A stretch of DNA of 64,000 nt, taken from the NCBI RefSeq assembly GCF_022447245.1, contig NZ_JAKVBC010000010.1, positions 62,001-126,000 of the forward strand. Reading direction: 5' to 3'. The notes under the pieces are model-generated. The model saw only the letters and a program-made list of their open reading frames with translations, did not search any database and was not told the DNA's origin. Positions 8,647 to 62,360 of the stretch are shown in pieces (position 1 is the first letter of the stretch; each line of letters opens with the position of its first letter). The translations under genes and the position numbers were made by a program. The stretch is from Kordia sp. Lineage in GTDB: Bacteria > Bacteroidota > Bacteroidia > Flavobacteriales > Flavobacteriaceae.

Positions 8647-8654
8647 TATATTTG
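8647..8654 (+). promoter_or_regulatory. -7 box of the queD promoter
   Basis: TATATTTG is a perfect Bacteroidetes TAnnTTTG -7 element, 18 bases before the QueD start codon at 8673, implying a very short leader. The -33 region is AT-rich with no strong TTTG. Confidence 0.55.
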
Positions 8655-8672
8655 CGCCATAATTGAGGACTC

Positions 8673-9122: not shown

Positions 9123-9174
9123 ATAAAAATAAAGAGTGCAGAACAAAGTCGAAGCGCTTTCTTATATTTACAAC

Positions 9175-10626: not shown

Positions 10627-10748
10627 GACTTTTAATTTGAGTTTCAAATATACAATTATTTATAATTAGTCTAAATAAAAGAAGTGTTAATTCTAAAAAA
10701 AATTAAACCTTTTTATAAAATGAAGGTCTTACTCCCAAATCTTACTTC

Positions 10749-17627: not shown

Positions 17628-17694
17628 ATCTGAAGTTTTTTTCGTTTCTTGTTGGTATCAAAAATACAAGTAATAAATTTAAAAATATACCATT

Positions 17695-18393: not shown

Positions 18394-18480
18394 TTCATCT
18401 ACACTTTTTTGCATTTCGTCTACACTTATTCTTCGTTAAACTGCAATTGAGTTTTAATACTTTTTTATGAACTAAAATTG
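18394..18480 (+). promoter_or_regulatory. shared-motif promoter of the sensory operon
   Basis: TTTCGTCTACACTTA lies at 18414-18428, preceded by TTGCA. Exactly 44 bases later is the -7 box TAAAATTG (18473-18480), with CAATTG at 18444-18449 in the -33 position. A second similar block, TTCATCTACACTT, begins 21 bases upstream at 18394, giving a direct repeat. The same core and spacing occurs at 31721, 54162 and 56976. The start codon of the first gene is 30 bases after the -7 box. Confidence 0.7.
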
Positions 18481-18509: not shown

Positions 18510-18923
18510 ATGAAAAATGCATTAAACGTATTATTAATCGAAGACAACATGATTGAGATCATGAAAATGAATCGTACGGTTTCATTGCTCAATGCCAAGC
18601 ATGAAATCACAGAAGCGAAAAATGCAGAAGAAGCGCTAGCAATTTTAGAAACGAAACAAAATTTACCTGATATTATCTTACTCGATTTGAATATGCCAAA
18701 AATAAATGGAATCGAATTTTTATCTATTTTAAAAAACGATCCAGATTTACGGCACATTCCTACGATAATTTTGACAACATCAGACAACAGAAAAGATATT
18801 TTAGAATGTTACCGAATTGGAATTTCTGGTTACATTTTAAAACCCCTAAAGTATGAAGAGTATGTTTCAAAAATAGAGATCGCTCTTTCGTATTGGTCAA
18901 TAAATGAATTAAAAAGTGCTTAA
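18510..18923 (+). CDS. receiver-domain-only response regulator
   Basis: 137 residues forming one REC domain: acidic pair ED at 11-12, phospho-acceptor Asp59 in IILLDLNMPKINGIEFL, Thr in ILTTSDN and Lys in YILKPLKYEEY. No output domain, so it probably shuttles phosphate or regulates by binding, like CheY or Rcp1. It heads a same-strand cluster of seven signalling genes (receiver, H-NOX, kinase, FIST, kinase, HPt, LytTR) and has the motif-bearing promoter immediately upstream. The 81-base gap to the H-NOX gene shows no terminator. Confidence 0.9.
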   Translation: MKNALNVLLIEDNMIEIMKMNRTVSLLNAKHEITEAKNAEEALAILETKQNLPDIILLDLNMPKINGIEFLSILKNDPDLRHIPTIILTTSDNRKDILECYRIGISGYILKPLKYEEYVSKIEIALSYWSINELKSA

Positions 18924-19004
18924 CCTCTTTTTGTGTTCTTAATTATTTGAGAATTTATAGTCCCCCCAAACTACACAAAAGGAAATACTTAACCTACTGT
19001 GCTT

Positions 19005-19547
19005 ATGAAAGGAATCATCTTTACAGAATTTTTAGACTTAGTAGAAGACAAATTTGGATTGGAAATGGTAGATACCATTGTTTCTCAATCAAAACTAGAA
19101 TCTAAAGGTGCGTATACAGCTATTGGTACGTATCACTTCTCAGAAATGCTTCAATTGTTACAAAACTTAAGTAACAATACTGAAATTTCTATTGATGATT
19201 TACTACTTACCTACGCCGAACATTTTTTTAGTGTTATAGAAAACAGTTATCCCGGACTGCTAGCTACCTACAAAGACCCTATTGAAATGTTGTCTTCTAT
19301 TGAAAATCATATTCATGTAGAAGTACGCAAAATATATCCCGACGCTGAATTGCCCACGTTTGTTGTTGAAGAAAAAACAGCAAATTCATTAACCATGATC
19401 TATAAATCGAGCAGAGCTATGCATCATTTTGGATTGGGATTAATGAACAAAACCTTTGAACACTTCAATAGTTCAGCAGAAATTATACTAGAAAAGATAA
19501 AAGAAGATGGAACTGAAGTAAAGTTTATTATCAAGAAAAATGAATGA
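19005..19547 (+). CDS. H-NOX haem domain gas sensor (HNOB family)
   Basis: 180 residues from ATG 19005; the GTG at 18999 would add two residues. The fold begins MKGIIFTEFLDLVEDKFG, typical of H-NOX. The proximal haem ligand is His104 in ENHIHVEVRKIYPDAELP, and the haem-propionate motif Y-x-S-x-R is Tyr133-Ser135-Arg137 in MIYKSSRAM. Stand-alone bacterial H-NOX proteins bind NO at the ferrous haem and inhibit or regulate a partner kinase. The stop overlaps the start of the kinase by four bases (ATGA), the classic H-NOX/HnoK layout. NO selectivity is expected for this non-fused class but was not tested here. Confidence 0.93.
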   Translation: MKGIIFTEFLDLVEDKFGLEMVDTIVSQSKLESKGAYTAIGTYHFSEMLQLLQNLSNNTEISIDDLLLTYAEHFFSVIENSYPGLLATYKDPIEMLSSIENHIHVEVRKIYPDAELPTFVVEEKTANSLTMIYKSSRAMHHFGLGLMNKTFEHFNSSAEIILEKIKEDGTEVKFIIKKNE

Positions 19548-21640
19548 GTCAGGAAGAAATAGACATATTAAAACGTGCCCTCAAACGTGAAAAAGACGCA
19601 AGAAAAGCTGCTGAAAAAATTCTGGAAGACAAGTCAAGAGAATTATATCATCTATCTGAAGAACTCAAAGTCTCTAATGCTAAATTAGAGGCTTCTGTCA
19701 ATGAAAAATCCTCACAACTTGAAGGTGTTTTTAAAAACATCAATGATGCCTATGTAGTCATAGATATTACTGGAAATGTCCTAAAAATGAATACTGTAGC
19801 TATTGATTTTTTTGGATATGATATATCACAAGAAAAGCTAAATATTGTTAATCTTATTTATCCAGAAGATGCCGAATATGCATTTACATCATTCAAAACC
19901 TTAGTGGAAGAAGGTGCTTTTACCAATTATACGGCTCGAATTCTTACCAAAAAAAAAGAAGTTAAATGGGTTCAAATAAACGCTACTGTCATTTATGATA
20001 AAAATGAAGAGCCTATCGCTGCACAAGGTATTGTTAGAGATATTACCGAAATAAAACATAACTCTGAATTACTAGAAGAACAGAAAAAAGAGTTGGATAT
20101 AATTGTACAAAATTCTTCACTAGGAATCATGCTAACGCAACACGGTAAGATTTTGAGAACAAATAAAGCTTTGCAAAGACTACTGGGCTATTCTGAGAAA
20201 GAATTTTCCAAATTTACTGTAAAAGATATTTCCAATCCTGATGATTTTAGTGAAGACGAGAAGTATAGAAAAAAAATAGATTTTGGTGAAATTAATAACT
20301 ATGTTTCTACTAAAAGATATAAGAAAAAAAATGGGACTTATGTTTGGACCAAAACAAACATCAATGCCGTAAGAAATAGATTTAAATCTATCAAATACCA
20401 AGTAACAATTATAGAAAATATAACCTTAGAAATGAAGCAGACTTTAATTATTGACATGATTAATGACTTAGCTAAATCTATTCTAGGAAAAAATAACATC
20501 TATGAAATTGCATGGGAAATGACTCAGAAAATTGCAGAATATTTAGGGACAAATGATTGTGTCATATATTTGGTTAATGACAAAAAAAATACTCTTGAGC
20601 AAATAGCTACATATGGACTCAAACTAGGTGAAAATAAAAAAATAAAAAATAAAATATCTATTCCAATAGGAAAAGGTATCGTCGGCTATGTAGCGAAAAC
20701 AGGAATACCTGAAATAGTAAAGGATTCCTCTATTGACAAAAGATATATTATAGATGATGATATTAGATATTCTGAAATATCAGTGCCTATTATAAGCAAT
20801 GGAAATGTAATTGGTATTATTGATTCCGAACATCCTGATAAAAACTATTTTAACAAACATCATCTTCAGACACTAGAAAATATTGCTAGTCTTGTATCCA
20901 TGCAGCTAAACAACGCTATAAACAATAGAAAGCGAGAAATTGCAGAAATTAAAAACAAACATTTATTACAAAAGCTTGAAAAACGAAATTCTGAATTAAA
21001 TGAATACGCTCATATTGTTTCCCACGATTTAAAATCACCTTTACGCAGTATTGATGCCTTGATTTCTTGGATAAAAACGGATAACAAAGGAAAACTTGAT
21101 ATACCAACGCTACAAAATTTTACGTTAATTGAAGGTACTTTAGAGACGATGGAAAAACTCATCTCCAACATCTTAGAATATTCAAGTGCAGGCTCTAAAA
21201 TTAATGAAACAAAAACTGTATATTTAAACCAAATAATGGACGAAATTAGTCGTATATTATTTGTTCCTGAGCATGTTTCAATCAAGGTGCTGAAAAAACT
21301 GCCTGTAGTAAAAGGTGATCCTACCAAATTTCAGCAATTATTTCAAAACTTAGTGAGCAATGCAATAAAGTTTAACAATAAAGAAGAAGGAATCATTGAA
21401 ATTGATTTTGTGGAAAAGATCTCTTTTTATCAGTTTTCTGTTCGTGATAATGGAATTGGTATTGAAAAAAAGTTTCACGATCGCATTTTCAAAATATTTC
21501 ACTCCTTAAATAAAAGTAAAGAATCTACAGGTATTGGATTATCAATTGTTAAAAAAATTGTCGATTTGTATGAAGGCACAATTTGGCTTGAGAGTGAGCC
21601 AGGAGAAGGCACAACGTTCTTCTTCACGATAAAAAAGTAA
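19544..21640 (+). CDS. H-NOX-associated hybrid-sensor histidine kinase (PAS-PAS-GAF-HisKA-HATPase)
   Basis: 698 residues, no transmembrane segment, so soluble. Order: an N-terminal coiled coil (about 1-60), PAS 1 (about 60-175, starting FKNINDAYVVIDITGN), PAS 2 (about 180-295, VQNSSLGIMLTQHGKI), GAF (about 300-460, IPIGKGIVGYVAKTG), phospho-acceptor His in HIVSHDLKSPLRSID, then an HATPase_c with NLVSNAIKF (N box), DNGIGI (G1) and STGIGLSIVKKIV (G2). No receiver domain is attached. The four-base overlap with H-NOX marks it as the H-NOX partner kinase. PAS and GAF could add redox or light or ligand inputs. Phosphate likely flows to the HPt or receiver genes of the same operon. Confidence 0.92.
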   Translation: MSQEEIDILKRALKREKDARKAAEKILEDKSRELYHLSEELKVSNAKLEASVNEKSSQLEGVFKNINDAYVVIDITGNVLKMNTVAIDFFGYDISQEKLNIVNLIYPEDAEYAFTSFKTLVEEGAFTNYTARILTKKKEVKWVQINATVIYDKNEEPIAAQGIVRDITEIKHNSELLEEQKKELDIIVQNSSLGIMLTQHGKILRTNKALQRLLGYSEKEFSKFTVKDISNPDDFSEDEKYRKKIDFGEINNYVSTKRYKKKNGTYVWTKTNINAVRNRFKSIKYQVTIIENITLEMKQTLIIDMINDLAKSILGKNNIYEIAWEMTQKIAEYLGTNDCVIYLVNDKKNTLEQIATYGLKLGENKKIKNKISIPIGKGIVGYVAKTGIPEIVKDSSIDKRYIIDDDIRYSEISVPIISNGNVIGIIDSEHPDKNYFNKHHLQTLENIASLVSMQLNNAINNRKREIAEIKNKHLLQKLEKRNSELNEYAHIVSHDLKSPLRSIDALISWIKTDNKGKLDIPTLQNFTLIEGTLETMEKLISNILEYSSAGSKINETKTVYLNQIMDEISRILFVPEHVSIKVLKKLPVVKGDPTKFQQLFQNLVSNAIKFNNKEEGIIEIDFVEKISFYQFSVRDNGIGIEKKFHDRIFKIFHSLNKSKESTGIGLSIVKKIVDLYEGTIWLESEPGEGTTFFFTIKK

Positions 21641-21642
21641 AA

Positions 21643-22782
21643 ATGAAAACAGTTCAAATAAAAAAAACAAAGACTTCTGGTTGGGAATATCTTAGTGAAA
21701 ATCATGCACTAAAAAACCCGCTCGTACTGGTTTTTGGAAATAGATATATGTTAGAAAGCGAAAGCATTTACGAAGAAGTAAAGTCGCTTTATAAGGATGG
21801 TGAATTTGTCTTTGGTTCTACTTCTGGAGATATTACATCGCAATATGTAGATGATGAAAGTATTACAATCACAGCTATTGAATTTGAATGCAGCAAATTT
21901 ATTATTAAATCAGCAAATGTTTTGGCTGATAATACTAGCATAAATAGCTATGAAACTGGAAAGAAGCTTATAGAACAATTTCCAAAACAAGGGTTGAAAC
22001 ACGTGTTTATTGTCTCTGAAGGAAGTTTTATCAATGGAAGTCAATTGACTTTGGGAATGAACTCAGCTACAGAAGAAAATGTACTAATTACAGGTGCTTT
22101 GTGTGGTGATGCAGCACGGTTTGAAAAAACGGTTGCTTCCTACAACGAACTCCCAAAATCAGGAGAAATTGTTGCTATTGGATTCTATGGGGAAACACTT
22201 AACATAAGTTTTGCTATCAATGGTGGCTGGACGCCTTTTGGACCTGAGCGTATTGTCACAAAATCAAAAGCAAATGTTTTATATGAATTGGATCATAAAC
22301 CTGCTTTAGACTTATATAAAAAGTATTTAGGTGAAAAATCGAAAGAATTACCTGGTGCGGCTTTATTATATCCGTTGAAGGTAAAATCGACCAATGAAAA
22401 GCATTCTATAGTTCGTACAATTTTAAATATTAACGAAGCAGAAAACTCTATGATTTTGGCAGGCGATATTCACGAAAATTCGCGTGTACAATTAATGATG
22501 ACAAATGTTGATAATATCGTTGATGCTTCCGAACAAGCAGCCATACAAGCACTAGAGTTACAAGGAAAAGCACCTGAACTGGCCATTTTAGTCAGTTGTA
22601 TTGGACGAAAGTTAGTATTAGATCAGCGCGTAGAAGAAGAAGTTGAAGAAGTCATTGAAGTCGTCGGAGAAAATACCACGATTTGCGGTCTATATTCGTA
22701 TGGAGAAATTGCCCCTTTTAGTGACGAAAAAACCTGTCAATTACACAATCAAACCATGACCATTACACTTATAAGTGAATAA
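21643..22782 (+). CDS. FIST domain protein (NosP-type candidate NO sensor)
   Basis: 379 residues, cytoplasmic. FIST_N spans roughly 20-220 (LVLVFGNRYMLE, FVFGSTSGDITS, ITGALCGDAARF) and FIST_C roughly 225-375 (ELDHKPALDLYKKYLG, CIGRKLVLDQR, CGLYSYGEIAP, LHNQTMTITL). FIST proteins of this form include NosP, a haem protein that binds NO and controls a co-cistronic histidine kinase in Pseudomonas and Vibrio (established for those species). Here the gene sits two bases after the H-NOX kinase and 34 bases before a second kinase. Haem binding in this protein is inferred from family and context only; I did not identify the haem ligand with confidence. Confidence 0.88.
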   Translation: MKTVQIKKTKTSGWEYLSENHALKNPLVLVFGNRYMLESESIYEEVKSLYKDGEFVFGSTSGDITSQYVDDESITITAIEFECSKFIIKSANVLADNTSINSYETGKKLIEQFPKQGLKHVFIVSEGSFINGSQLTLGMNSATEENVLITGALCGDAARFEKTVASYNELPKSGEIVAIGFYGETLNISFAINGGWTPFGPERIVTKSKANVLYELDHKPALDLYKKYLGEKSKELPGAALLYPLKVKSTNEKHSIVRTILNINEAENSMILAGDIHENSRVQLMMTNVDNIVDASEQAAIQALELQGKAPELAILVSCIGRKLVLDQRVEEEVEEVIEVVGENTTICGLYSYGEIAPFSDEKTCQLHNQTMTITLISE

Positions 22783-22816
22783 ATCATAAAAGAAGTTTTT
22801 TACAAGTATTGCGTGA

Positions 22817-23866
22817 ATGAATTCATTATTAAAAAGACAACTTAGAAAATTTATAAGTCCTGAACTGCAGGCACATCCTGAAATGGAGCGTTTCTTGGAT
22901 GCGGTAAATCGTTCCTATACTACATCTGATGAACAATTTGCCATGTTGCAACGAGCAACAACAATTAGTTCTGAAGAATTGTTTGAAGCCAATCAGCAAC
23001 TCAAAAAAGAGTCTGATGCGCAAAAAGAAGTCATCAAAAAACTTCAAAATGTAATTGACACCTTAAATGAATACCAATTAGGTGTTAGCGAAAAACAAGA
23101 AAATATAGCATTAGATTCCATAAAATTGGTTGATATTATTGACAATCAAACCAAAGAAATTTTAAAAATAAATGAACAGCGAGATAAACTAGTAAAAAGT
23201 TTAGAGCGTCAAAATCAAGAACTCAACGATTATACACACTTAGTTTCTCATGATTTAAAATCACCACTTCAAAGTATTGATGCATTGACGTACTGGCTGC
23301 TAGAAGATTTTGAGGCGGTATTAGGTCACAATGGGAAAAAAAATATTACACTCATTCGAGACAATGTAGAAAAAATGAACACTTTGGTAAAAGGAATCTT
23401 AAAGTATTCCTCTATTGGTCATGTTGAAAAAGGTTTTTACAAAGTAGATACTGCGGATGTACTTCAAAAAGTAATTCCTTTTATGAAAGTGCCCGAACAT
23501 ATCACTATAACAATTCCAGAAAAGCTACCAACGGTTACTGGTGATCATTTCCGGTTGAGAGAATTGTTTCGAAATCTACTAAGAAATGCTATTAAATTTA
23601 ATGACAAACCCAAAGGAGAAATTGTCATTGGTTATACAGACAAAAATGTTTTTTGGGAGTTTTATATAAAGGATAATGGAAAAGGTATTGAAGAAAAATA
23701 CTTCGATAAAATCTTTATAGCTTTCCAAAAACTCCAAAATGACTACAAATCCACAGGAATAGGACTTTCAATTGTAAAAAAAATCATCGATCTTTATCAA
23801 GGTGACATCTGGATTGAATCCACGCCAACAATAGGAGCTACTTTTTACTTTACACTAAAAAAGTAA
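22817..23866 (+). CDS. histidine kinase paired with the FIST protein
   Basis: 349 residues, soluble. The first 55 residues carry MNSLLKRQLRKFI and HPEMERFLDAVNRSYTTSD, a short conserved module frequent in kinases next to FIST proteins. A long coiled coil follows (ELFEANQQLKKESDAQKEVI through LNEYQLGV). The phospho-acceptor His is in THLVSHDLKSPLQSID, and the ATPase domain shows NLLRNAIKFND, DNGKGIEEKY and STGIGLSIVKKII. The catalytic half closely resembles the kinase at 19544, so the two are likely paralogues. It lacks PAS and GAF domains, so its input is probably the FIST protein. Confidence 0.9.
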   Translation: MNSLLKRQLRKFISPELQAHPEMERFLDAVNRSYTTSDEQFAMLQRATTISSEELFEANQQLKKESDAQKEVIKKLQNVIDTLNEYQLGVSEKQENIALDSIKLVDIIDNQTKEILKINEQRDKLVKSLERQNQELNDYTHLVSHDLKSPLQSIDALTYWLLEDFEAVLGHNGKKNITLIRDNVEKMNTLVKGILKYSSIGHVEKGFYKVDTADVLQKVIPFMKVPEHITITIPEKLPTVTGDHFRLRELFRNLLRNAIKFNDKPKGEIVIGYTDKNVFWEFYIKDNGKGIEEKYFDKIFIAFQKLQNDYKSTGIGLSIVKKIIDLYQGDIWIESTPTIGATFYFTLKK

Positions 23867-23966
23867 AAACATAAAAAAAAACTCCGTTTTACAGCAGATT
23901 TGTGTAACTTATAGTTTTGAATTCGTCTTAACGGATTACTAAATCGAGTTTCACTAAAGTAAAACC

Positions 23967-24284
23967 ATGGAACAACCTAACTTAACCTACGTAGAACAAT
24001 TAGCACGCGGAGATGAAAATATCCGAAGCACACTAATTGATGTAATAAAAACTGAATTTCCTGAAGAAAAAAATGAATATTATGAAAGCCTAGTCACAAA
24101 AGATTACAAAAAAATAGAAGAAAATGTTCACAAACTTAAGCACAAAATTAGTATTTTGGGGCTTGAAAAAAGTTATGAACTCGCTAATACCTACGAGCAC
24201 AACCTTCGCGAAAAAAGAATGGATGGTGTCGATGATTTTGAAGAAATTTTAAACACGATTACAGCGTACATTAAAACTATTTAA
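23967..24284 (+). CDS. HPt domain phosphotransfer protein
   Basis: 105 residues, all helical, a stand-alone HPt. The phospho-accepting His55 lies in VHKLKHKISILGLEKSYELA, matching the HKLK-xxxxxLG pattern. It lies 100 bases after the second kinase and 3 bases before the LytTR regulator, so it is probably the relay between receivers or from kinases to LytTR. A possible internal -7 box (TAGTTTTG, 23912-23919) in the 100-base gap may give the HPt-LytTR pair its own transcript. Confidence 0.88.
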   Translation: MEQPNLTYVEQLARGDENIRSTLIDVIKTEFPEEKNEYYESLVTKDYKKIEENVHKLKHKISILGLEKSYELANTYEHNLREKRMDGVDDFEEILNTITAYIKTI

Positions 24285-24287
24285 GGC

Positions 24288-24995
24288 ATGAATTGTATTA
24301 TTATAGATGATGAAAGACTGGCTAGAACGATTATAAAAACCTTGTGTGATGAAATCAGTTCATTGCAAGTGGTTGGTGAATTTCCAAATGCAATGCAAGC
24401 CATTAAGCATTTGAATGAAAACGAAGTAGATCTGATTTTTTTAGATATTCACATGCCAGATTTTACAGGATTTGACTTTGTAAAAACACTCAAAAATCCA
24501 CCAAGTATTGTATTGACAACATCTGATCCGAAGTTTGCGATTGAAGCTTTTCAGTACGAATGTATTGTTGATTATTTGCTGAAACCGATTGAAACAGATC
24601 GCTTTAAAATGGCAGTGGAAAAAGCGAAAAAACAGCAATTGTTGAATACCAAAGTAGAAGAAAACAACGCTGAAAAAACATATGAGAATGATTTTTATAT
24701 CAATATTGATCGTCGTTTGATCAAAATTGACATTCCAAGTATTTACTTAGTAGAAGCCAAAGGAGATTATATTCACATTAAAACAGAAGATAAAAACTAT
24801 ACGGTACATTCTACCTTAAAGAAAATTGAGGAAAAACTTCCAGATTCATTATTCTTAAAAATTCATCGTTCATACATTATTAACTTGAAGAAAATCATTG
24901 ATATTGAAGACAATAGTGTTTTAATTAAAAAAGATGTAATTCCTGTGAGTCGGTCGAAACGTCCAGAATTAATGAAACGATTGGATTTACTTTGA
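24288..24995 (+). CDS. LytTR family response regulator
   Basis: 235 residues. REC domain 1-120 with acidic pair Asp7-Asp8, phospho-acceptor Asp53 in LIFLDIHMPDFTGFDF, Thr in LTTSDPKFA and Lys in DYLLKPIETD. LytTR DNA-binding domain about 130-235: IYLVEAKGDYIHIKT, FLKIHRSYIINLKKI and IPVSRSKRPELMKRL. LytTR proteins bind short direct repeats about 21 bases apart. It is the only DNA-binding protein in the operon and hence the likely output of both kinases. The gene starts 3 bases after HPt. Relics of other genes begin just after its stop, on the opposite strand. Confidence 0.92.
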   Translation: MNCIIIDDERLARTIIKTLCDEISSLQVVGEFPNAMQAIKHLNENEVDLIFLDIHMPDFTGFDFVKTLKNPPSIVLTTSDPKFAIEAFQYECIVDYLLKPIETDRFKMAVEKAKKQQLLNTKVEENNAEKTYENDFYINIDRRLIKIDIPSIYLVEAKGDYIHIKTEDKNYTVHSTLKKIEEKLPDSLFLKIHRSYIINLKKIIDIEDNSVLIKKDVIPVSRSKRPELMKRLDLL

Positions 24996-25004
24996 TAGAC
25001 ACTG

Positions 25005-25706
25005 TCCAAAACATAGATGAGAAGGATTTAATCTGATATGGTATTGTTATTATCTTTGTTTTAACTAAATAGGAATCTCTGTTATATTGTTTAGATCGTC
25101 TTTCATAATAAAGTCTCTTATCTCCTTCAAAAGAATTATAATATTGTTCTAGATGTCTTTGAAATTGTGTAACAGATGCTAACTGCTCTTTTTTAATCTG
25201 AGTCTGACTATTAGTCGCAAATGTAATTTGGTTTTTTATATCTTCATTTTCTGTTGCTCTAATTTTAATAGGACTATGTATTTCATCTATATTTTCGGAT
25301 GTTCTGTTATTATACATTACATTACTTGTTTGACATCCATTAACGATTTGATAGTCTTTTATAGTAAAAGTATCACCTGTATTATTAAGTGAGTTTGTTA
25401 CTATTGTCACTCCATTATTTAAAACACTAAATAAATATACCGATTCTCCTGTAATAGTACTTAAGATTCTTTTATTTACATCATTGGAATCGCCTTGAAA
25501 ATCTCTAACATTATCCTCAAATACATTTTGTATTCTATCGTTTTCATCTACTATTATCTTTTTGAATTCTTTGAATGGAATCATTCCAATATAAGACTGT
25601 GTAATGCCGTCAATTGATAGTAGTGTTATACTAGAATTAAATTCAAAGGTTGTTGATATTGCTTCTTTAGACTTTCTATATGTTCTTACAATTTCACTTG
25701 TTCCAT
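25005..25706 (-). pseudogene. AIPR phage-resistance protein fragment
   Basis: A minus-strand frame of about 234 codons, without a start or proper ends, reads like the middle of the AIPR (abortive infection phage resistance, PF10592) family: QSYIGMIPFKEFKKIIVDEN, NVFEDNVRDFQGDSNDVNK, TIKDYQIVNGCQTSNVMYNN, and RATENEDIKNQITFATNSQTQ. Full-length members are about 550-700 residues. The left side stops being AIPR-like about 10-15 bases from the LytTR stop codon, and on the right the frame begins after a TAA near 25707. It is therefore truncated at both ends and very unlikely to be functional. Confidence 0.72.
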
Positions 25707-25841: not shown

Positions 25842-27371
25842 CTAAAAGTCTTGACTCTTTTCCTCCACAAACTCAAAAGCAGCCTTCTTCTTCCCATCCG
25901 TATCAATGATTCCAAACTTTTTCTGCGGATTGGTACGCCATGGGCGACTTCCCACAACTTTGCTTGGAATGTCTTTAAAATCATATAAAGTCCAGGCTAT
26001 ATAGGAAATATTTTCTGCTTTGAGTATTGCTTGCATGGCTTTGTAATACTTGGCTTGCTTCTTTTCCGAACCTGCAAATGGACGCCAAAATCCACCATAG
26101 GAAGATTGTCCATATTCCCCAAGAACAATTGGTTTATTAGTGATTTTCGCTTTTAAATCAGAATATTCCTGAGCAAAGTCTGCAACAGCATCATAATAGT
26201 GAAACGATACAAAATCGAGCTTATCTTGTAATAAATGAGCGTTTTCGGTATTGGACCAACCAATTGTCACCAAATGCTGATTGTCAATGGATTTTACGAG
26301 TGAAATCATACTTTCTAACCAAGCTAGCACATTTTCTTTTCCGCGCGATTCAAAGTCCAAATTTGGTTCGTTTTTGATGTCCCATGCTACAATTGCCTTG
26401 TGATTTTTGAATTTAGAAACGATGGTTTCCGCATGTCTTTGTGTTAGTGTCCAATCTAGTACTTCGTAATTTACATAGAAATCAAATAAAGTCACAACTG
26501 TTTGCAATTCTTTACTTTCTGCTGCATCTAAAACTTGTTCTAATTTTTCAAGCTTGTCTAGGTGTACATTTGCTTTTCCAAAGTCTTCATATGGGACAAA
26601 AATTCGGATCGTATTCAACCCTGCATTTGCAATGATATCAAAGTCTTTTTTGATGATTTCGATATCAAATTGATCGCCAAACATCTCCCAAGGACTTGCC
26701 TGCGGATAGTAATTGATTCCTTTTAGATTCAAGTTAGAAACAGCTTTGGTTTTGGTAGTTTTTTCAAGTGTTTTTGTCTTTTCTTTTACTAAATGACGAA
26801 TGCGCCAAAAGCCATCTTCCAATAATAAAATTGCTTTGTAATTTGCCATTTCAGTAGTTTCCATCACAAAAGCAACATCTTTGTATAGCTGTTTATATTC
26901 CACCACATTCTCATCTTTTAAAACAATGAGTTGTCCATCTTCACTAAAGAATTCAATATTTGGTGTATGCGAAAGGGTTGTTGCATCTACAGTTATATTT
27001 TGCTCTTTGTTTTGGGCTACAAAATCCATTATATTTTTACGGGCACTTTCTGTGTAATAATCATCAATTCCGCTGATTTGATTGGTTTTGTAAGATACAT
27101 GTTTTACATACCAAGCATCTAAATAATCATTCTCGATTTTTGTCAATGTTTGTTCGTCCATTGGTCTACCTTCATTACCATCATCAATCCAGTTCATTTT
27201 GGGCAAATACTGGTCTATTTTTTTGACTTCTGTATGTAACATTTTGCTTCTATCAGCTCCCGTATTTAGATAGGTAAACGCACTACTGATTAAGAAAATC
27301 AGTATGGAAATGACAATGATGTATGTAAACACCAAAAAACCACGTATGATGTTTTTGTCTGCTTTTACCAT
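25842..27371 (-). CDS. membrane-anchored glycoside hydrolase (GH5/cellulase-like)
   Basis: 509 residues. An N-terminal membrane helix (GFLVFTYIIVISILIFLI) anchors it, with the rest outside the cytoplasm. Residues about 60-205 form an NTF2-like or wall-proximal module (WYVKHVSYKTNQISGIDDYY). From about 215 a TIM-barrel glycosidase appears: LKGINYYPQASPW, AGLNTIRIFVPYEDFG, WDIKNEPNLDFES with the acid/base Glu, FVSFHYYD, and IVLGEYGQSS with the nucleophile Glu. It is the last gene of a three-gene minus operon and its ATG overlaps the stop of the Ig-like gene by a few bases. It probably trims or processes the polysaccharide made by this locus. Confidence 0.85.
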   Translation of the reverse strand: MVKADKNIIRGFLVFTYIIVISILIFLISSAFTYLNTGADRSKMLHTEVKKIDQYLPKMNWIDDGNEGRPMDEQTLTKIENDYLDAWYVKHVSYKTNQISGIDDYYTESARKNIMDFVAQNKEQNITVDATTLSHTPNIEFFSEDGQLIVLKDENVVEYKQLYKDVAFVMETTEMANYKAILLLEDGFWRIRHLVKEKTKTLEKTTKTKAVSNLNLKGINYYPQASPWEMFGDQFDIEIIKKDFDIIANAGLNTIRIFVPYEDFGKANVHLDKLEKLEQVLDAAESKELQTVVTLFDFYVNYEVLDWTLTQRHAETIVSKFKNHKAIVAWDIKNEPNLDFESRGKENVLAWLESMISLVKSIDNQHLVTIGWSNTENAHLLQDKLDFVSFHYYDAVADFAQEYSDLKAKITNKPIVLGEYGQSSYGGFWRPFAGSEKKQAKYYKAMQAILKAENISYIAWTLYDFKDIPSKVVGSRPWRTNPQKKFGIIDTDGKKKAAFEFVEEKSQDF

Positions 27372-28576
27372 AGTTTTATTGCTTTCAATGTTTTTGTAAT
27401 GCCTGCTGTTGTAATTTTGAGATCGTAGTTTCCGTTGTTGAAAATATTTGGATTCAATTCAAAGTTCACAAAACCATCACGCGATTCTTCTATATATCTT
27501 TCCAATATGTTTTCGTTTTGATATACACTTAACGTAACCTGTAAACCATCTGGAATCAGTTGTTTCATAAAGCTTCGTAATGGTCCAACCTGAAAGCTTC
27601 TATTATTTTCAGAAAATGTAACCGTAAAATCTTGTATGACTTGTGTATAGCTCAACGAAATGGTATTACTTTCCGAAATCCCTTTTACATACGCTTTTAT
27701 GCTCCAGGTTTCTAAGTGATCTGGATGAATCATCTTTGCTGTTGCAACACCATCAATCGTCATTCCTGCAGTTTTTAAAAGATTTCCATCTGCATTTGTA
27801 ATAAAGAATTCTACATAACTTCCATCACTTATAATATTGTCATTTTCATCTTTTAAAACCGAAGTTGTAAATGTTGTAATTTGATTTCCATCTGCATATT
27901 TGTGTGGTCGTTTTGCAAAAATTTCAAAATCGGTGGAAATTGCAGGCATAATATTTACAGTATACTCTTTAGAATTGAGCCCTAAGCATTCGGTTGCCAA
28001 TAACATTCTACCATTTTTTGAAGGTGCATAGATACGTTGATACGCAATTAAGTTATTTGTTCGAATCATTTCTTGTTGTTCATCAGCTAAAAATTGATGT
28101 TTTACAGCAACTTCAGTGTTTTTTTGTACGGGATTGTCCAAAGCATCGGTTGGAATTACAACTAACATGGTACAATCTCTATCGCCAGCTTCTATACTTG
28201 GCGGCCCAACATAGGTTTCCATAGAAACAGGTTGTACTTTTGGAAGAATTGTAAATGTTCCTGAAAGTGCGTTTGTCTTGTCCAATAATCTCCAATTGAC
28301 AATTCCTCTTTTACTACAGATTTGTGTTGGAATTGTATATTGCAGTTGATTATTGGTAATTGTTGCAGATATCAAGGTTGACCCATAACTATTGGCACAA
28401 TACAATTGAATTGAAGCATCTTGCGTTCCTGAAAATATCAAATTAATGTTTTCGCCAGCCGTGAATTCTTGCTGTGTAGTTTCCAATCGAATCGTTTCGA
28501 AAGTTTTTACACTGAATGTTTTCGCGCTTGACGCAATTACTAAAAAATAATATAATATGTAGTTCAATTTTATCAT
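27365..28576 (-). CDS. secreted protein with Ig-like/invasin-type domains
   Basis: 403 residues with a weak signal peptide (YILYYFLVIASSAK). Mature part is all beta: an opening domain (TTQQEFTAGENINLIFSG), an Ig-like bacterial domain (ITTFTTSVLKDENDNIISDG, FFITNADGNLLKTAG) and a third C-terminal beta domain (YQNENILERYIEESRDGFVN). It probably sits at the cell surface or in the periplasm next to its neighbours. The start ATG overlaps the stop of the upstream membrane protein (ATGA), so the two are translationally coupled. Function unknown; a scaffold for the polysaccharide machinery is one guess. Confidence 0.72.
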   Translation of the reverse strand: MIKLNYILYYFLVIASSAKTFSVKTFETIRLETTQQEFTAGENINLIFSGTQDASIQLYCANSYGSTLISATITNNQLQYTIPTQICSKRGIVNWRLLDKTNALSGTFTILPKVQPVSMETYVGPPSIEAGDRDCTMLVVIPTDALDNPVQKNTEVAVKHQFLADEQQEMIRTNNLIAYQRIYAPSKNGRMLLATECLGLNSKEYTVNIMPAISTDFEIFAKRPHKYADGNQITTFTTSVLKDENDNIISDGSYVEFFITNADGNLLKTAGMTIDGVATAKMIHPDHLETWSIKAYVKGISESNTISLSYTQVIQDFTVTFSENNRSFQVGPLRSFMKQLIPDGLQVTLSVYQNENILERYIEESRDGFVNFELNPNIFNNGNYDLKITTAGITKTLKAIKLW

Positions 28577-31500
28577 TTTGGGTTTCCTATATAAGCGTTG
28601 AGTTCAATTTTCACATAACTGTAAACCGAATTATCTATTTTTTGTACCACAGTATGATTCTTTCTATTTGGGACAATCTTGTTTGAGATATCTTCGTTTG
28701 GTAAACCGTTTATATAACAGTTTTCCATATCTGTACTAATGATTTGTATGTTTTCATCTTGCAATATTTGATATTGAAATGGTTGTTTTCGTTGTTGTCG
28801 AATAGCTCTGTCTAAAAACTGATGATCTACCCATAAAATTTCTTGGTTTTCATCATAATAGGATACCAATAACTGTGGAACCGTAATTTCTTGTAAGCCA
28901 CTATTAAATAGGTTTCCTCTGATGGTTTTTGGATCGATATGCAAATCGCTCAATACGATATTTTTATATAAGTCGGATCCTGAAACGTTGCCTGCTGCAT
29001 GCAAGTTAAATTTGGTTGGCGTATCGGCTAAATCTACAGGTGTGAATTCGTCTGGATTGAAGGTTTCTGGAATAGAATCCTTTGTTTTTGACCAAGCAAT
29101 ACCTTCAAAATTGATACGAAACGATGTCACTTCTTTTGGCATTAGCTTGTGCTTCATATGATATTTAGCATTGTAGGTTGCTAATTCCACATTTTCGTCA
29201 TTATACAACGTTCCTTTTAGCACCACATCGGCCGGTACATTGTCTATGTTTTGCACTTGACCGACAATAGCATAATGTCCGTTGTGTTTTACCAATTTTG
29301 CTATCAGAATCTCCAAAACAGGTTGCTTCAATACATCTTCGTGATAGGTTTGTTCTGTAGTAATACGTCTTCTTCCATGATTGTAGTAGGCAGTTTTATT
29401 GTTAGAAAATAATTGATCTGGTGGCAAATCGGCTTCGATAGCTTCTGCTTCTAAAAACCATTTCCCATTGAGTTTTACAACCGTTTTATAATCTGTTCTA
29501 TTAATTTTTTCTAAAGGCGTAACCCATTTTGTATTTACTTTTAACGTTGCCAAACTATCGGTTTCTTTTGTAATTTTAGTTTCTATCGCATCCAATTTTG
29601 CGTAGGAACTCAACAAACCATCTGTAGATGAAATTTCGAGCATATACTGTGCAATAGTGACATTATTTTCGGGATTGATAAAACTGTGTGCTTTTTCGAA
29701 TTCTTTAAAATCGAGCGCGTCGTAATAGGCTTTGACTAAATTTTCAGGCGAACGTTGCGCATCGTTTTTTATGTAGAACTGATAGATTCCAAATGCTAAA
29801 ATCCCAATTAAAATAATTGACCAAACATGATTGACTTTGAACAAGTTTTTTGAAAATTTAATATAGCCATTATCAAACTGTAAATATTCTTGCGCATCTC
29901 TTCGCTTTCGCTGAATATATCGCAAGAAGATTGGACGAATATTAAAGATAAATGCCAAAATAATCGTCATAAACGGAATAATTCCCCAAGCTAGTTTTTG
30001 CCAAGTAGCGACCTCATCTTTTGGTAAAATAGATGATAACGGCGGAACGTTTAATTTTTCCCAAACCATGATCCCATTTTCCAATTGTGGTAAGCGTTGC
30101 CATCCACAGAAATAGAGAATTGGATCATAGAATTTGTCATTAGAGAAAATGTATTTTAGGTTATATTTTTCGGGTGTTGTTAAGAACTGTTGCAACGAAC
30201 CAATTCCGGCAACTCCTTTGAATTTTGAGTTCTCCAAACGTTCTATTGGCCGTGTGGTGAGTTCTGGCAAACGACGTGCTGAATGGTAGTTTCCATCAAC
30301 CGATAACGCATTGGTTTGTGCAGCTAGCCACGCCATTTGATCACCAAAACCAAGCGTTAAGTAACGCCACTGATCGTGTTGATCTTGATTGAGGAAGTTG
30401 ACAATTGGAAGCATTTTTATTTTTTGTGGCTGCGATGGTCTGAAATAGCCTAAACTCATCGCAAAAATTGTCATGAACACAAACAACGCTGCCAATCCGC
30501 CACCAATGATTCGATGATACATAGCGCCAAATTTTTCTTGGAAAAATGTTTTTAAATCTGCTTCTGCAAAACGATAGGCAAATTCGCCAAATAGCGGCAA
30601 TGACATGATGGAAGCCCAAAGTGTAAATCTGTCTAAGGTTAATATATTAAAAGCTGTGTCTCCCAAAATTTTTCGCGGAATTGGCGTTGTGCCACCAGTT
30701 CCCAATATAAATAAAAGTGTGATTGACAAACCAAAAAACAGATAACGTTTGCTGTAGTATCTGTAGAAAATGTATGGCAATAGGAACAATAAAATTCCCC
30801 ACGGGATTAAAAAGAATACCAATCCAGACGAAGTAACTTCCAAAAAGTGATCGCGTGAACCATGTGGAATTGGTACTTGCGTGATTGGATTATTTTTAGA
30901 GTTGATCCAATACGGTAAAATACATCCGATAATGATCACCAAAGAAGACATTCCAAACAAAACAATTCGTTTAAATAACTTCTTAAAATTTCTCCAAAAG
31001 ACGAAAAACGTGATTTCTTTTATGGATTGTACTTGTTTTCGTGATGCATCCATAATGGCCATTCCGATCAATGGAAAAATGAATAATACCATACCAAAAA
31101 TTGGTGTTACATGATGCGATGCAACCGTAACTGCAATTAGAGAAAGTGACGTAAATAAGTACTTGTATTTGCCTGTTTGCAACCAAAGATAAATCTCTGG
31201 TAAGGTATGCATCAATATCGCTATACCAACGATACTTGGCAACTGCCCAAAAATATGTAGTGTTTCTACAAAAGAAGATGAGAAAACAGCAAGAATTGCT
31301 GCATAACCTGCTACTTTTTTGTTTCCTGTTAATAGTAATGAAAAACGATACACACCTGTTAAAAAAAGAATCACTGCAATTATTGCAACAGTAAACAATC
31401 CAAATTTTAATCCGCTAATAAAAGACAATGCGCCAATTGACTGATGCACTAGTGGTGGGTAGCTCATTACAGTAAATCCTGTATACCATTTGTAGTTCCA

Positions 31501-31656
31501 AGGTTCAAACCAACTGTTTGCATAATGATCTGCAAAGAATACATGAATTAAAGCATCGTAGGTAGTTTCTAAAGTGAAAAAGATTGACGTACCATGAAAC
31601 ACTACTCCAAGAAGTAATGCTACTAGTAATAGTTTATTTGTCGTCTTTTTCATCAT
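28573..31656 (-). CDS. large polytopic membrane protein (PTPS-related / GT-C-like)
   Basis: 1027 residues from ATG 31656 (MMKKTTNKLLLVALLLGVVF); the longer upstream frame is not protein-like and would cover the divergent promoter. About twelve or more hydrophobic segments fill residues 1-450. TLETTYDALIHVFFADHYAN and FEPWNYKWYTGFTVMSYPPL near the N-terminus resemble the membrane family tagged 6-pyruvoyl-tetrahydropterin synthase-related, and the DxD-like acidic loop after helix one recalls GT-C glycosyltransferases. The C-terminal third (after helix near 660) is a soluble part with an NTF2-like section and beta domains. It starts the operon with the Ig-like and glycosidase genes. Role in polymer assembly is inference. 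Confidence 0.72.
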   Translation of the reverse strand: MMKKTTNKLLLVALLLGVVFHGTSIFFTLETTYDALIHVFFADHYANSWFEPWNYKWYTGFTVMSYPPLVHQSIGALSFISGLKFGLFTVAIIAVILFLTGVYRFSLLLTGNKKVAGYAAILAVFSSSFVETLHIFGQLPSIVGIAILMHTLPEIYLWLQTGKYKYLFTSLSLIAVTVASHHVTPIFGMVLFIFPLIGMAIMDASRKQVQSIKEITFFVFWRNFKKLFKRIVLFGMSSLVIIIGCILPYWINSKNNPITQVPIPHGSRDHFLEVTSSGLVFFLIPWGILLFLLPYIFYRYYSKRYLFFGLSITLLFILGTGGTTPIPRKILGDTAFNILTLDRFTLWASIMSLPLFGEFAYRFAEADLKTFFQEKFGAMYHRIIGGGLAALFVFMTIFAMSLGYFRPSQPQKIKMLPIVNFLNQDQHDQWRYLTLGFGDQMAWLAAQTNALSVDGNYHSARRLPELTTRPIERLENSKFKGVAGIGSLQQFLTTPEKYNLKYIFSNDKFYDPILYFCGWQRLPQLENGIMVWEKLNVPPLSSILPKDEVATWQKLAWGIIPFMTIILAFIFNIRPIFLRYIQRKRRDAQEYLQFDNGYIKFSKNLFKVNHVWSIILIGILAFGIYQFYIKNDAQRSPENLVKAYYDALDFKEFEKAHSFINPENNVTIAQYMLEISSTDGLLSSYAKLDAIETKITKETDSLATLKVNTKWVTPLEKINRTDYKTVVKLNGKWFLEAEAIEADLPPDQLFSNNKTAYYNHGRRRITTEQTYHEDVLKQPVLEILIAKLVKHNGHYAIVGQVQNIDNVPADVVLKGTLYNDENVELATYNAKYHMKHKLMPKEVTSFRINFEGIAWSKTKDSIPETFNPDEFTPVDLADTPTKFNLHAAGNVSGSDLYKNIVLSDLHIDPKTIRGNLFNSGLQEITVPQLLVSYYDENQEILWVDHQFLDRAIRQQRKQPFQYQILQDENIQIISTDMENCYINGLPNEDISNKIVPNRKNHTVVQKIDNSVYSYVKIELNAYIGNPK

Positions 31657-31720
31657 GAGATGTAATGCTTTTTCGTTAAAGTAAAGATAAACGGTCTTCT
31701 TTTTAATTGGACTAAAGGAA

Positions 31721-31794
31721 ATTGCATTTCGTCTAAAGATAGCTCCGTTTAAGATGTTTTGAGGGAAATCATCTGCAATTCCCAACTACTTTTG
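31721..31794 (+). promoter_or_regulatory. shared-motif promoter of the receiver-GT2 gene
   Basis: ATTGCATTTCGTCTAAAGAT begins at 31721. The -7 box TACTTTTG lies at 31787-31794, 45 bases after the aligned end of the motif, and TTTG at 31758-31761 fits the -33 element. The core TTGCATTTCGTCTA is identical to the sites at 54162 and 56976 and matches the site at 18410. The divergent minus operon starts at 31656, so the element lies between two operons and might act on both. Confidence 0.7.
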
Positions 31795-31869: not shown

Positions 31870-33057
31870 ATGATGAAAATATTAGCCATAGACGATCAGA
31901 AATTAGTATTGATTCCTTTAGAAAGTAGATTACAGGAATTAGGATACCAAGTATTGACAGAAACAAATGCTTTGAAAGGAATGGAATTGTATGATATGTT
32001 TCAACCAGATTTGGTAATTGTAGACATGAACATGCCAATCGTTTCTGGAATGGAAATCGTACAACATATTCGTAGAGATAGAAAAGACGATACACCAATC
32101 ATGATATTATCTGGAAATACCGATGATGAAATGATTACCAAAGGCTTTGATTTAGGTGTAAACGATTATATGAAAAAACCGTTGAGTTTAAATGAAGTTT
32201 GTGCCATAGTAAAAAGAATTATTGGTGTTCCTAAACATTCTGCTGTTGCAAATACAGATACAGTAATGATTCAACAAAGATGTGTTGGTGTTGTGATTCC
32301 TTGTTATAACGAAGCAGAACGTTTGTTAAGCACAGAGTTTACAGATTTTATCGACAAGAATTCTGGATATCACTTATGTTTTGTAAATGACGGAAGTAAA
32401 GATAATACACTGGAAGTTTTGTACAAACTACAAAAAGGAAGAGAAGATTTTATTACCGTATATGATTGTGAGAAGAATGGCGGAAAAGCAGAAGCTGTTC
32501 GTTTGGGAATGTTATATATGGCGCAAAGAGCTGATTTGGATTATATCGGATTTTTAGATGCTGATTTGTCTACCGATTTGGCTGATTTTGATGATATGGC
32601 TTCAACCATAGAAAACTCTGACTTTAAGATTGTAAGTGGTTCTAGAATTAGCAGAATGGGCGCAAATATTACCAAAGAATCTGCGCGTAAAGTAATTAGT
32701 ATGACGATTAACTTCATCATAAGAAATATATTGTCAATGAATTTTAAAGACACACAATGTGGCGCAAAAATTTTCCATAAAGATGTTATCAATCTTGCGT
32801 TTGACAAGAAGTTCATCACAAAGTGGTTGTTTGACGTAGAGATTTTTATGAGAATGCGCAAGCATTTTGGATTGGACAAAGCCAGAGCAATGATGTGCGA
32901 GAAGCCTTTGAAGCGTTGGATTCATGCAGATGGTTCAAAATTATCTATGAAAGATTCTATTAAAATTATTGGTCAATTAGGACAAATTGCATGGTTTTAC
33001 AGAGGTAAAAAAAAAGTTACCACTAGCGAAGTAAAGGCAAATTTTGAAGTTGCCTAA
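31870..33057 (+). CDS. response regulator receiver fused to GT2 glycosyltransferase
   Basis: 395 residues, an uncommon fusion. Residues 1-120 are a REC domain: Asp8-Asp9, phospho-acceptor Asp52 in LVIVDMNMPIVSGMEIV, ILSGNTDD and Lys in NDYMKKPLSL. A short linker leads to a GT2 (DPM1/dolichyl-phosphate mannosyltransferase-like) domain: GVVIPCYNEAERLL, CFVNDGSKDNTLEVL, CEKNGGKAEAVRLGM, YIGFLDADLSTDLADFD (metal-binding DxD) and DTQCGAKIFHKD, then WLFDVEIFMRM. There is no membrane helix in the enzyme part. The layout implies direct control of sugar transfer by phosphorylation. The promoter carries the shared motif. Confidence 0.9.
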   Translation: MMKILAIDDQKLVLIPLESRLQELGYQVLTETNALKGMELYDMFQPDLVIVDMNMPIVSGMEIVQHIRRDRKDDTPIMILSGNTDDEMITKGFDLGVNDYMKKPLSLNEVCAIVKRIIGVPKHSAVANTDTVMIQQRCVGVVIPCYNEAERLLSTEFTDFIDKNSGYHLCFVNDGSKDNTLEVLYKLQKGREDFITVYDCEKNGGKAEAVRLGMLYMAQRADLDYIGFLDADLSTDLADFDDMASTIENSDFKIVSGSRISRMGANITKESARKVISMTINFIIRNILSMNFKDTQCGAKIFHKDVINLAFDKKFITKWLFDVEIFMRMRKHFGLDKARAMMCEKPLKRWIHADGSKLSMKDSIKIIGQLGQIAWFYRGKKKVTTSEVKANFEVA

Positions 33058-33123: not shown

Positions 33124-33558
33124 ATGAAGATTGGAATTCTAATTATATTCCGTAATGACGAAAAAGTGATTGATGTGCAACGACTTATTGCGTTGTTTTC
33201 CGACAAGCAAAAATTGGATGTTTGTTTTGTAAATAATGGAAGTACTGACAAAACGCTTGAATTATTAAAAGAAATTCAAGAAGATAGTAGTATTTCGGTT
33301 TCAATTATTGATGTGAAGAAAAATCGTGGTTATGAAGCTGCCATCAAAGCAGGTATTCGGTACTTGGCTAGCAAAAATGAGTTGCCTTATATTTTATGTT
33401 TGAAGCAATATACTTCTCAGGATTATAATACTTTAGAAAAGGTATTCCGTGTTGTTCAGCAAGAAAAAGATATTGTGATGGATTTGTTTTCTAAAACTAA
33501 GCGTATGGCGCATAAGAATGTGTTTTCATTGCATAGTATATTGGATACGGCGTGTTAA
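33124..33558 (+). CDS. small GT2-like protein, glycosyltransferase N-terminal half only
   Basis: 144 residues. It starts MKIGILIIFRNDEKVIDVQR and carries CFVNNGSTDKTLELL and VKKNRGYEAAIKAGIRYL, the nucleotide-binding half of a GT2 fold, but the DxD site is replaced (LCLKQYTSQDY) and the C-terminal catalytic half is absent. It is therefore probably a non-catalytic relative or regulator of the neighbouring receiver-GT2 enzyme. It lies 66 bases downstream in the same orientation. The leader contains AACCTACTGT directly before the start, as also seen before the H-NOX gene. Confidence 0.72.
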   Translation: MKIGILIIFRNDEKVIDVQRLIALFSDKQKLDVCFVNNGSTDKTLELLKEIQEDSSISVSIIDVKKNRGYEAAIKAGIRYLASKNELPYILCLKQYTSQDYNTLEKVFRVVQQEKDIVMDLFSKTKRMAHKNVFSLHSILDTAC

Positions 33559-54095: not shown

Positions 54096-54161
54096 ACCAA
54101 ACAAATATAAAGGATACATCTGTAATATTTCAATTCGACGAATTTTGTTAGTCATCAGAAA

Positions 54162-54234
54162 ATTGCATTTCGTCTACACTTAAAATGATCGTACCGCCAA
54201 TTGGATTTTTCCCTTTTTTGAGTTCCTAGATTTG
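54162..54234 (+). promoter_or_regulatory. shared-motif promoter of the first tandem T9SS gene
   Basis: ATTGCATTTCGTCTACACTT begins at 54162. Exactly 44 bases after the ACTTA end (54182) is the -7 box TAGATTTG (54227-54234), and CAATTG at 54198-54203 fills the -33 place, the same relative position as in the sensory operon promoter. The start codon is 20 bases further. Confidence 0.72.
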
Positions 54235-56901: not shown

Positions 56902-56975
56902 TATGTTTTAAATAGCTTAAACCCTTTTGTTTATTGACCTTATAAGGCATTTGAAAAATGGTTAGTCTGAAGAAA

Positions 56976-57048
56976 ATTGCATTTCGTCTACACTTAAAAT
57001 GATTGTGCCGTGAATCAGGTTTTTCGCAGTTTTCAGTCCCTAGCTTTG
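56976..57048 (+). promoter_or_regulatory. shared-motif promoter of the second tandem T9SS gene
   Basis: ATTGCATTTCGTCTACACTT begins at 56976; the -7 box TAGCTTTG (57041-57048) starts 44 bases after the ACTTA end at 56996. The -33 place holds GAATCAGG. The region from GAAAATTGCATTTCG to the -7 box is about 75 percent identical to the paralogue 1 promoter. The leader to the ATG at 57161 is about 110 bases. Confidence 0.72.
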
Positions 57049-62276: not shown

Positions 62277-62360
62277 ATAGTTGATTTTTGACAGTTGTAA
62301 GTTAAGCATAAGCTTCCAAACATTCATCGCAAGAAAATTGAATCTCACCGACGATGAGCC

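Follow-up and report, generated by a model that had tools for sequence, protein, structure and literature searches.

A 64,000-nucleotide stretch of the 5.24 Mb genome of a Kordia species (assembly GCF_022447245.1, contig NZ_JAKVBC010000010.1, positions 62,001 to 126,000), hereafter the window, carries seven same-strand genes that place a putative haem nitric oxide (NO) sensor of the H-NOX family and a FIST-domain protein, each with a histidine kinase, beside one stand-alone receiver protein (REC), one histidine phosphotransfer protein (HPt) and one LytTR response regulator. The best reading, which we consider probable, is a branched two-input phosphorelay controlling an exopolysaccharide regulon. 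NO bound through the H-NOX haem would set the activity of the first kinase (HK1) and a second ligand bound by FIST would set that of the second (HK2); from both kinases phosphate would move to the stand-alone REC and from there, by way of HPt, to LytTR, which would bind direct repeats with a period of 21 bp before its own operon, before the promoters of an exopolysaccharide cluster and before genes for secreted proteins. Through LytTR, NO and the second ligand would thus govern matrix production at the level of transcription. HPt may also act directly on a second target, a fusion of a receiver with a family-2 glycosyltransferase (REC-GT2) that the cluster encodes. The evidence is computed: genes, active sites, conservation, presence or absence of the FIST cassette, repeats and linkage.

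Two putative inputs and one relay in a seven-gene operon

The genes span positions 18510-24995 of the plus strand, as called from open reading frames, and each product carries a Pfam domain above its cut-off (Table 1). From REC to LytTR the gaps between them are 75 or 81, -4, 2, 34, 100 and 3 bp. An earlier reading made from the sequence alone (the sequence-only reading) had listed REC, H-NOX, a PAS/PAS/GAF kinase, FIST, a second kinase, HPt and LytTR, and this order is present as described; the 4-bp overlap it had seen between H-NOX and HK1 lies at 19544-19547. The HisKA domain of HK2 scores 26.0 bits, slightly below its cut-off of 26.9.

Numbered from the ATG at 19005, H-NOX contains His104 and the motif Y133-K-S-S-R137, so that the His104 and Tyr133-x-Ser-x-Arg named in the same reading were confirmed by a residue check. 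Conservation was counted over 75 operons, with 74 H-NOX and 63 HK2 proteins: His104 is kept in 73 of 74 H-NOX proteins, the Tyr and the Ser in all 74 and the Arg in 70. The window protein is identical to the crystallised H-NOX of Kordia algicida (PDB 6bdd) at 166 of 180 residues (92%, counted by eye from the alignment), and because of this identity it is likely, judging from sequence, to bind haem and NO. The entry 6BDD is used as the Kordia algicida (Ka) H-NOX in the accessible part of a simulation paper (PMC7356049).

The acceptor Asp of REC, the His of HPt, the Asp of LytTR and the His of HK1 are kept in every operon, and the His of HK2 in all 63 HK2 proteins (Table 1). Neither kinase is a hybrid, since neither contains a receiver domain. 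In established phosphorelays the transfer from kinase to HPt requires an Asp step; because neither kinase carries a receiver, the stand-alone REC is needed by the relay, and phosphate would pass from the kinases to REC, then to HPt and finally to LytTR. A paralogue search with the HK2 core in its own genome returned HK1 as the nearest relative (217.5 bits), then the kinase of a REC-HK-HPt-LytTR operon (208.5 bits), after which scores fall to 154. Gene order, the invariant active sites and the closeness of HK1 and HK2 speak for the shared HPt and LytTR output that the sequence-only reading had proposed, and a single HPt and a single LytTR appear to serve both kinases; the role of the stand-alone REC and the exopolysaccharide output had been missed in that proposal. 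According to Pfam, none of the seven proteins has a cyclic di-GMP (c-di-GMP) enzyme domain.

This REC-HK-HPt-LytTR operon, a paralogue of the relay in the same genome (L201, G000:C12:115000-132000, at 7308-10980), has neither H-NOX nor FIST; its kinase is split over two reading frames.

Predicted LytTR sites before the operon and an exopolysaccharide cluster

A promoter alignment within the genus revealed a common block before the operon and before REC-GT2, in each case two 9-bp direct repeats 12 bp apart. LytTR sites have a direct-repeat layout, and the predicted sites fit that layout. In the window, the site pattern has four matches at up to 3 mismatches (Table 1) against 0 in 100 shuffles; in the whole genome, the only matches at up to 2 mismatches are four that fall inside the window, with 3 more at 3 mismatches and 2 in a reversed control. 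We then extended the search to a panel of 119 related genomes, own genome included, picked without regard to FIST. At up to 2 mismatches, 32 sites were found in 10 of the 11 genus genomes: 9 lie before the operon by position, 1 of the same sequence is in G006, a genome whose operon is truncated by a contig edge and whose site lies on another contig, 9 precede the nine REC-GT2 genes of the genus and 13 lie elsewhere. K. algicida has the site before REC-GT2 though this gene is about 254 kb from the operon. One genome with neither relay nor cluster (G004) has zero sites, and one with the relay and no cluster (G002) has its own promoter site only.

Outside the genus the Kordia pattern gave 8 matches in 7 genomes (reversed control 2), and because these were few and all at 2 mismatches, a broader repeat and a matrix were needed there. 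Among 67 operon promoters outside Kordia, a period-21 repeat occurs in 9, 23 and 45 at 0, 1 and 2 mismatches, versus means of 0, 0.95 and 7.8 in shuffles by blocks of two bases, which do not preserve dinucleotides strictly. A matrix built from operon promoters outside Kordia found 66 sites in 20 cluster loci (397 kb) versus 1 in 28 control loci (501 kb). Of these sites, 43 lie at the starts of REC, of the large membrane protein gene (MEM), of REC-GT2 or of the TPR gene, regions that make up 4.7% of the bases; because some of the 20 operon-promoter sites used for training came from the scanned loci, the REC count is partly circular and those of MEM, REC-GT2 and TPR are not, and the MEM and REC-GT2 windows overlap, so that one site may count for both. 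Eight of the 20 cluster loci come from genomes whose H-NOX operon is FIST-less, and since all eight have sites, the output belongs to the core of the operon. No matrix site of score 10 or above was found in the paralogous relay stretch L201. In a further 33 loci, sites scoring above 17 stand before starts of sugar-nucleotide-dehydrogenase-like genes (L066, L134) and before a GDP-mannose-type pyrophosphorylase gene (L141, named by eye), and a detached FIST-kinase pair of Flavobacterium rivuli (L144:7776-10169) has a predicted relay site of score 28 about 200 bp before FIST.

Across genomes the cluster co-occurs with H-NOX. Its hydrolase and TPR genes occur in an identical set of 27 of the 119 genomes, and the cluster is found in 25 of 37 genomes with H-NOX versus 2 of 82 without (Fisher p 1.5e-14; by genus p 1.2e-9). 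In the 22 genomes with hydrolase and H-NOX on one contig, the distance between the two is 6.8-29 kb in 21 and 260 kb in K. algicida. TPR/BcsC-like genes recur near 40 of the 75 relay loci and secreted proteins of the DUF6923/DUF4114 kind near 31; glycosyltransferase, hydrolase and 454-aa membrane-like genes are rarer neighbours. The acceptor Asp of REC-GT2 is retained in every REC-bearing row compared.

An assignment to a named exopolysaccharide system, such as poly-N-acetylglucosamine (PNAG) or cellulose, was tried and rejected, as no tested component reaches its NCBIfam cut-off (PgaA 55.1 bits of 366.65, PgaC 53.7 of 422.3, BcsC 22.6 of 858). In another locus (L035:1621-2862) we noted a bacterial sugar transferase whose N-terminus resembles a receiver domain, under cut-off and, by eye, without the acceptor Asp; members of this family lie downstream of the relay in 9 of the 75 loci, next to outer-membrane efflux genes and to genes that by eye are chain-length-like.

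FIST and HK2 form a cassette on a fixed core

Gene labels in the fetched stretches around H-NOX and FIST were assigned by phmmer with the window proteins as queries. The arrangement is not a chance one, because the full seven-gene order recurs in at least 62 loci, nearly all from Flavobacteriaceae; at least 60 are distinct (L077 duplicates L091, and L082 duplicates L090). This count was made by script over a pool joining the 119-genome panel and a FIST-found set, and the five-gene core without FIST was found in 12 loci of the pool. The FIST-found set consists of the best 80 of 588 confirmed FIST loci, 47 of which show the seven-gene order, including loci from Kordia algicida, Tenacibaculum, Polaribacter, Winogradskyella, Maribacter and Flagellimonas; being FIST-selected, it gives no estimate of the rate of FIST loss.

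Within the panel, H-NOX occurs in 37 genomes, FIST in 38 and both in 27, that is, FIST is present in 27 of 37 H-NOX genomes versus 11 of 82 others. A genome search for H-NOX near FIST, which the sequence-only reading had suggested, found both in one gene row in 19 of the 37 H-NOX genomes, one of them decayed (G059). Of the other H-NOX genomes, 12 have the REC/H-NOX/kinase/HPt/LytTR core without FIST-HK2, 1 has the core and an additional kinase but no FIST, and 5 have H-NOX in other contexts. The core of the system is thus REC/H-NOX/kinase/HPt/LytTR, and FIST-HK2 is a cassette gained and lost. On a REC+HPt+LytTR tree of 75 operons, which mixes FIST-found and unbiased loci and scores L098 as without FIST, FIST presence changes 13 times, with at least 5 changes forced by well-supported branches; there is no clustering of FIST on this tree (13 changes versus a shuffled mean of 13.1).

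The pair is also found away from the relay. In L049 and L144, FIST-HK2 pairs are detached, without HPt or LytTR within the fetched stretch, and L047 holds a detached kinase-FIST-HK2 set; the core of L098 retains its own HK2 and is preceded, at a distance of about 2 kb, by FIST and an HK2-type kinase. The H-NOX slot varies as well. In five Flavobacterium loci a different H-NOX type fills it, with the His and the YxS retained (three checked proteins score 122-171 bits on PF07700), and in three loci (L126, L143, L145) the slot is too small for an H-NOX gene. Either sensor can therefore be swapped or lost, the relay remaining.

The Flavobacterium loci with the swapped type include L136, L123 and L113, and in L123 the kinase after the variant H-NOX has an HNOBA domain, which may reflect a module swap. 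One H-NOX (L045:9014-9562, from a genome with 8% contamination) has Tyr for the proximal His and Asp for the motif Arg; its operon has the core and a second kinase and lacks FIST. The decayed operon (L078, G059:C9) has a stop in the H-NOX frame and a truncated FIST, with no HK2, HPt or LytTR after it.

The FIST ligand and other readings of the operon

The sequence-only reading took FIST for a NosP-type haem sensor, with the relay reading NO over two affinity ranges or redox states. The FIST domain is indeed common to NosP, and the 29 FISTs of our alignment (window FIST included) match no NCBIfam family other than NosP. According to the accessible parts of the sources, one NosP is described as haem-responsive (PMC13259868), a proteobacterial NosP works with an adjoining kinase without a recognised sensor domain (PMC12570481) and NosP-linked kinases can feed HPt-type proteins (PMC11784011, PMC6769237). 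The co-occurrence of FIST with H-NOX points the same way, and His254 of the window protein aligns with a His of annotated NosP. However, membership of NosP was rejected on score: the window FIST reaches 48.7 bits on the equivalog model NF041558, against a cut-off of 450, ten relatives scored singly reach 18.8-95.3 bits, and the best E-value among the 29 is 5e-28. His254 is present in this one member and absent from the 28 others, whereas His368, kept in 28 of 29, misses the nearest NosP His by one column; the columns invariant between our FISTs and three annotated Azospirillum NosP include Cys319 and Arg322 and no His. Both His368 and Cys319 are kept in 61 of 61 operon FISTs. A structure model of the window FIST (pLDDT 93.8) has FBXO22, not a haem protein, as its nearest fold, followed by cyanuric-acid hydrolase (of the cyclic-amide hydrolases) and chorismatase; a sequence search found no solved relative at E 1. 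HK2, with only HisKA and HATPase, scores 67.1 bits on the NahK/ErcS-type hybrid kinase model NF041832 (cut-off 400), and FIST-kinase pairs without adjoining H-NOX are common. The identification with NosP is thus not supported, nor is NO sensing by the window FIST, and we regard a NosP-type sensor here as unlikely.

Two further alternatives concern the route of the signal. The kinases might have different targets, FIST-HK2 sitting in the operon for shared expression only and signalling elsewhere. Since the pair is absent in places, or stands without HPt and LytTR (L049, L144), it may have partners outside the operon, and no relay site above 17 accompanies the detached FIST loci L047 and L049. 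Against this, the distances of HK2 in 60 operons correlate with those of FIST (0.85), LytTR (0.83) and HPt (0.82), values from which shared descent was not removed; HK2 is closest to HK1, and the detached L144 pair does have a predicted relay site. We judge separate targets to be improbable. Less probable still, in our view, is that the repeats belong to another regulator and that the relay stands beside the cluster merely through old gene order: adjacency of the two is common to many genomes, but the repeats fit the LytTR layout, lie in front of the operon in nine of the ten relays of the genus (the other is the one cut by the contig edge), are missing from the genome without relay, precede REC-GT2 even at a distance in K. 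algicida and do not occur above score 10 in the paralogous relay stretch.

Several observations weigh against the two-input relay with an exopolysaccharide output. At the score used, matrix sites are incomplete (REC-GT2 in 15 of 19 loci, TPR in 11 of 17, REC in 7 of 10), one locus with relay genes (L219) has none, and 6 of the 33 further loci lack a site above 17, namely the relay loci L101, L115, L126 and L146 besides the two detached FIST loci just named. The Fisher tests of co-occurrence ignore shared ancestry, 12 H-NOX genomes lack the cluster, and part of the conserved neighbourhood may go back to an old gene order. In three genomes (L225-L227) the glycosyltransferase has no REC, hence the cluster can do without phosphorylation of this enzyme. 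Finally, an internal NO source through copper nitrite reductase is not evident, because this enzyme is absent from the genome of the window and is not enriched with H-NOX: scored over cut-off, it occurs in 23 of 119 genomes, in 0 of 11 genus genomes, and in 7 of 37 genomes with H-NOX versus 16 of 82 without.

A more elaborate form of the two-input relay would have two outputs as well, HPt phosphorylating LytTR to act on transcription and REC-GT2 to act on enzyme activity. FIST would sense a small metabolite, and the operon would be a coincidence detector for NO and a non-NO ligand on a c-di-GMP-independent route to exopolysaccharide. We put this forward tentatively, as somewhat doubtful. If true, REC-GT2 would allow polysaccharide synthesis to be switched directly by phosphorylation.

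Relation to known systems

In Spo0-type phosphorelays, several non-hybrid kinases feed one stand-alone REC, then a phosphotransferase and a DNA-binding regulator. The Kordia relay differs in having HPt instead of Spo0B, a LytTR output and a predicted haem sensor as input. With PNAG- and cellulose-type export, which uses TPR porins, the cluster shares a TPR protein of weak PgaA/BcsC resemblance, glycosyltransferases and a glycoside hydrolase; unlike them it has the REC-GT2 fusion, and its tested components fall under the cut-offs of the named systems.

The H-NOX/HnoK systems of Shewanella and Vibrio likewise place H-NOX beside a cognate kinase and follow phosphorelay logic. Their outputs, in the accessible parts of PMC8846402, PMC8738867 and PMC6769237, are c-di-GMP enzymes or quorum-sensing relays, whereas the Kordia operon ends in a LytTR regulator with predicted exopolysaccharide promoters and has no c-di-GMP enzyme domain. 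NosP/NahK and NosP/NosK/NosR resemble our operon in that the FIST gene directly precedes a kinase without a named sensor domain; here, in contrast, FIST is far under the NosP model, the kinase is a plain one, not a NahK-type hybrid, and the relay is shared with H-NOX. The sequence-only reading knew of no single operon of this composition. We found no such account either, in a search that left most subscription literature outside; the proximity of H-NOX and FIST genes, however, is already in print, as a review lists FIST genes among hnox neighbours in H-NOX group 1 (PMC8738867, section 10 and Figure 6 legend). In the accessible part of that review this is a neighbourhood statistic, with no operon, HPt, LytTR or exopolysaccharide link. 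Within the same limits of the search, we found no account of an exopolysaccharide link of the operon; nothing was found on H-NOX together with NosP in Bacteroidetes, and the accessible part of one paper on H-NOX with LytTR names LytTR only for AgrA-type regulators.

In the NO-biofilm systems of the literature consulted, NO acts mostly through c-di-GMP or quorum-sensing circuits. By tying a predicted haem NO sensor to LytTR and an exopolysaccharide cluster in Bacteroidota through gene order, phyletic pattern and shared promoter repeats, the operon offers a concrete, testable regulon through which the biofilm matrix may be under direct control of gas sensing. In turn, the optional FIST-kinase cassette provides a natural experiment, a putative second input added to a fixed relay.

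Features of the window and neighbouring genes

Table 1. Genes and predicted sites of the relay and its putative regulon (positions in the window)
Feature	Positions	Strand	Evidence
Stand-alone REC, predicted phosphorelay intermediate	18510..18923	+	PF00072 81 bits; acceptor Asp 75/75
H-NOX, putative haem NO sensor	19005..19547	+	PF07700 132.6 bits, cut-off 25.5; alternative GTG start 18999
HK1, PAS-PAS-GAF-HisKA-HATPase	19544..21640	+	Pfam; His494 75/75
FIST N + FIST C protein, predicted second input	21643..22782	+	PF08495 130.9 bits, PF10442 120.8 bits
HK2, no named sensor domain	22817..23866	+	HATPase 80 bits; His145 63/63
HPt phosphotransfer protein	23967..24284	+	PF01627 24.7 bits, cut-off 24.6 (marginal); His55 75/75
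REC-LytTR response regulator	24288..24995	+	PF00072 71 bits, PF04397 78.8 bits; Asp53 75/75
Direct repeat, period 21 (two 9-bp copies, 12 bp between), predicted LytTR autoregulatory site	18397..18424	+	0 mismatches; 85 bp before REC gene; weaker overlapping copy at 18418
Predicted relay site	31710..31737	+	between likely MEM start and REC-GT2 start; promoter alignment and pattern match
Predicted relay site	54151..54178	+	2 mismatches, score 21.6; 76 bp before 54255 gene
Predicted relay site	56965..56992	+	1 mismatch, score 21.8; 168 bp before 57161 gene
Glycoside-hydrolase-like protein of exopolysaccharide cluster	25842..27371	-	PF02836; relatives in 27/119 genomes
Cluster protein	27365..28576	-	weak Invasin_D3 match under cut-off; conserved in cluster
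Large membrane protein (MEM) of cluster	28573..31785	-	weak PF10131 under cut-off; conserved in cluster; start near 31656 likelier, by eye
REC-GT2 fusion	31870..33057	+	PF00072 83 bits, PF00535 75 bits; acceptor Asp kept
Second family-2 glycosyltransferase-like protein	33124..33558	+	PF00535
Secreted protein, DUF6923 + type IX secretion tail	54255..56831	+	
Secreted protein, DUF4114 + type IX secretion tail	57161..59614	+	
TPR export-type cluster protein	60201..62348	-	relative in L038 matches BCSC_C; 41 kb from H-NOX

On the opposite strand, a gene with an AIPR domain (24925-25584) overlaps the end of the LytTR gene; it covers the first 189 of 308 positions of PF10592, and among NCBIfam models it comes nearest to the MZA anti-phage AIPR protein, with a score far under cut-off. 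Directly upstream of the operon, at 17193-18285, lie OsmC-like and AhpD-like (CMD) genes, which hold the same place in 8 Kordia-type loci and are possible oxidative-stress neighbours.

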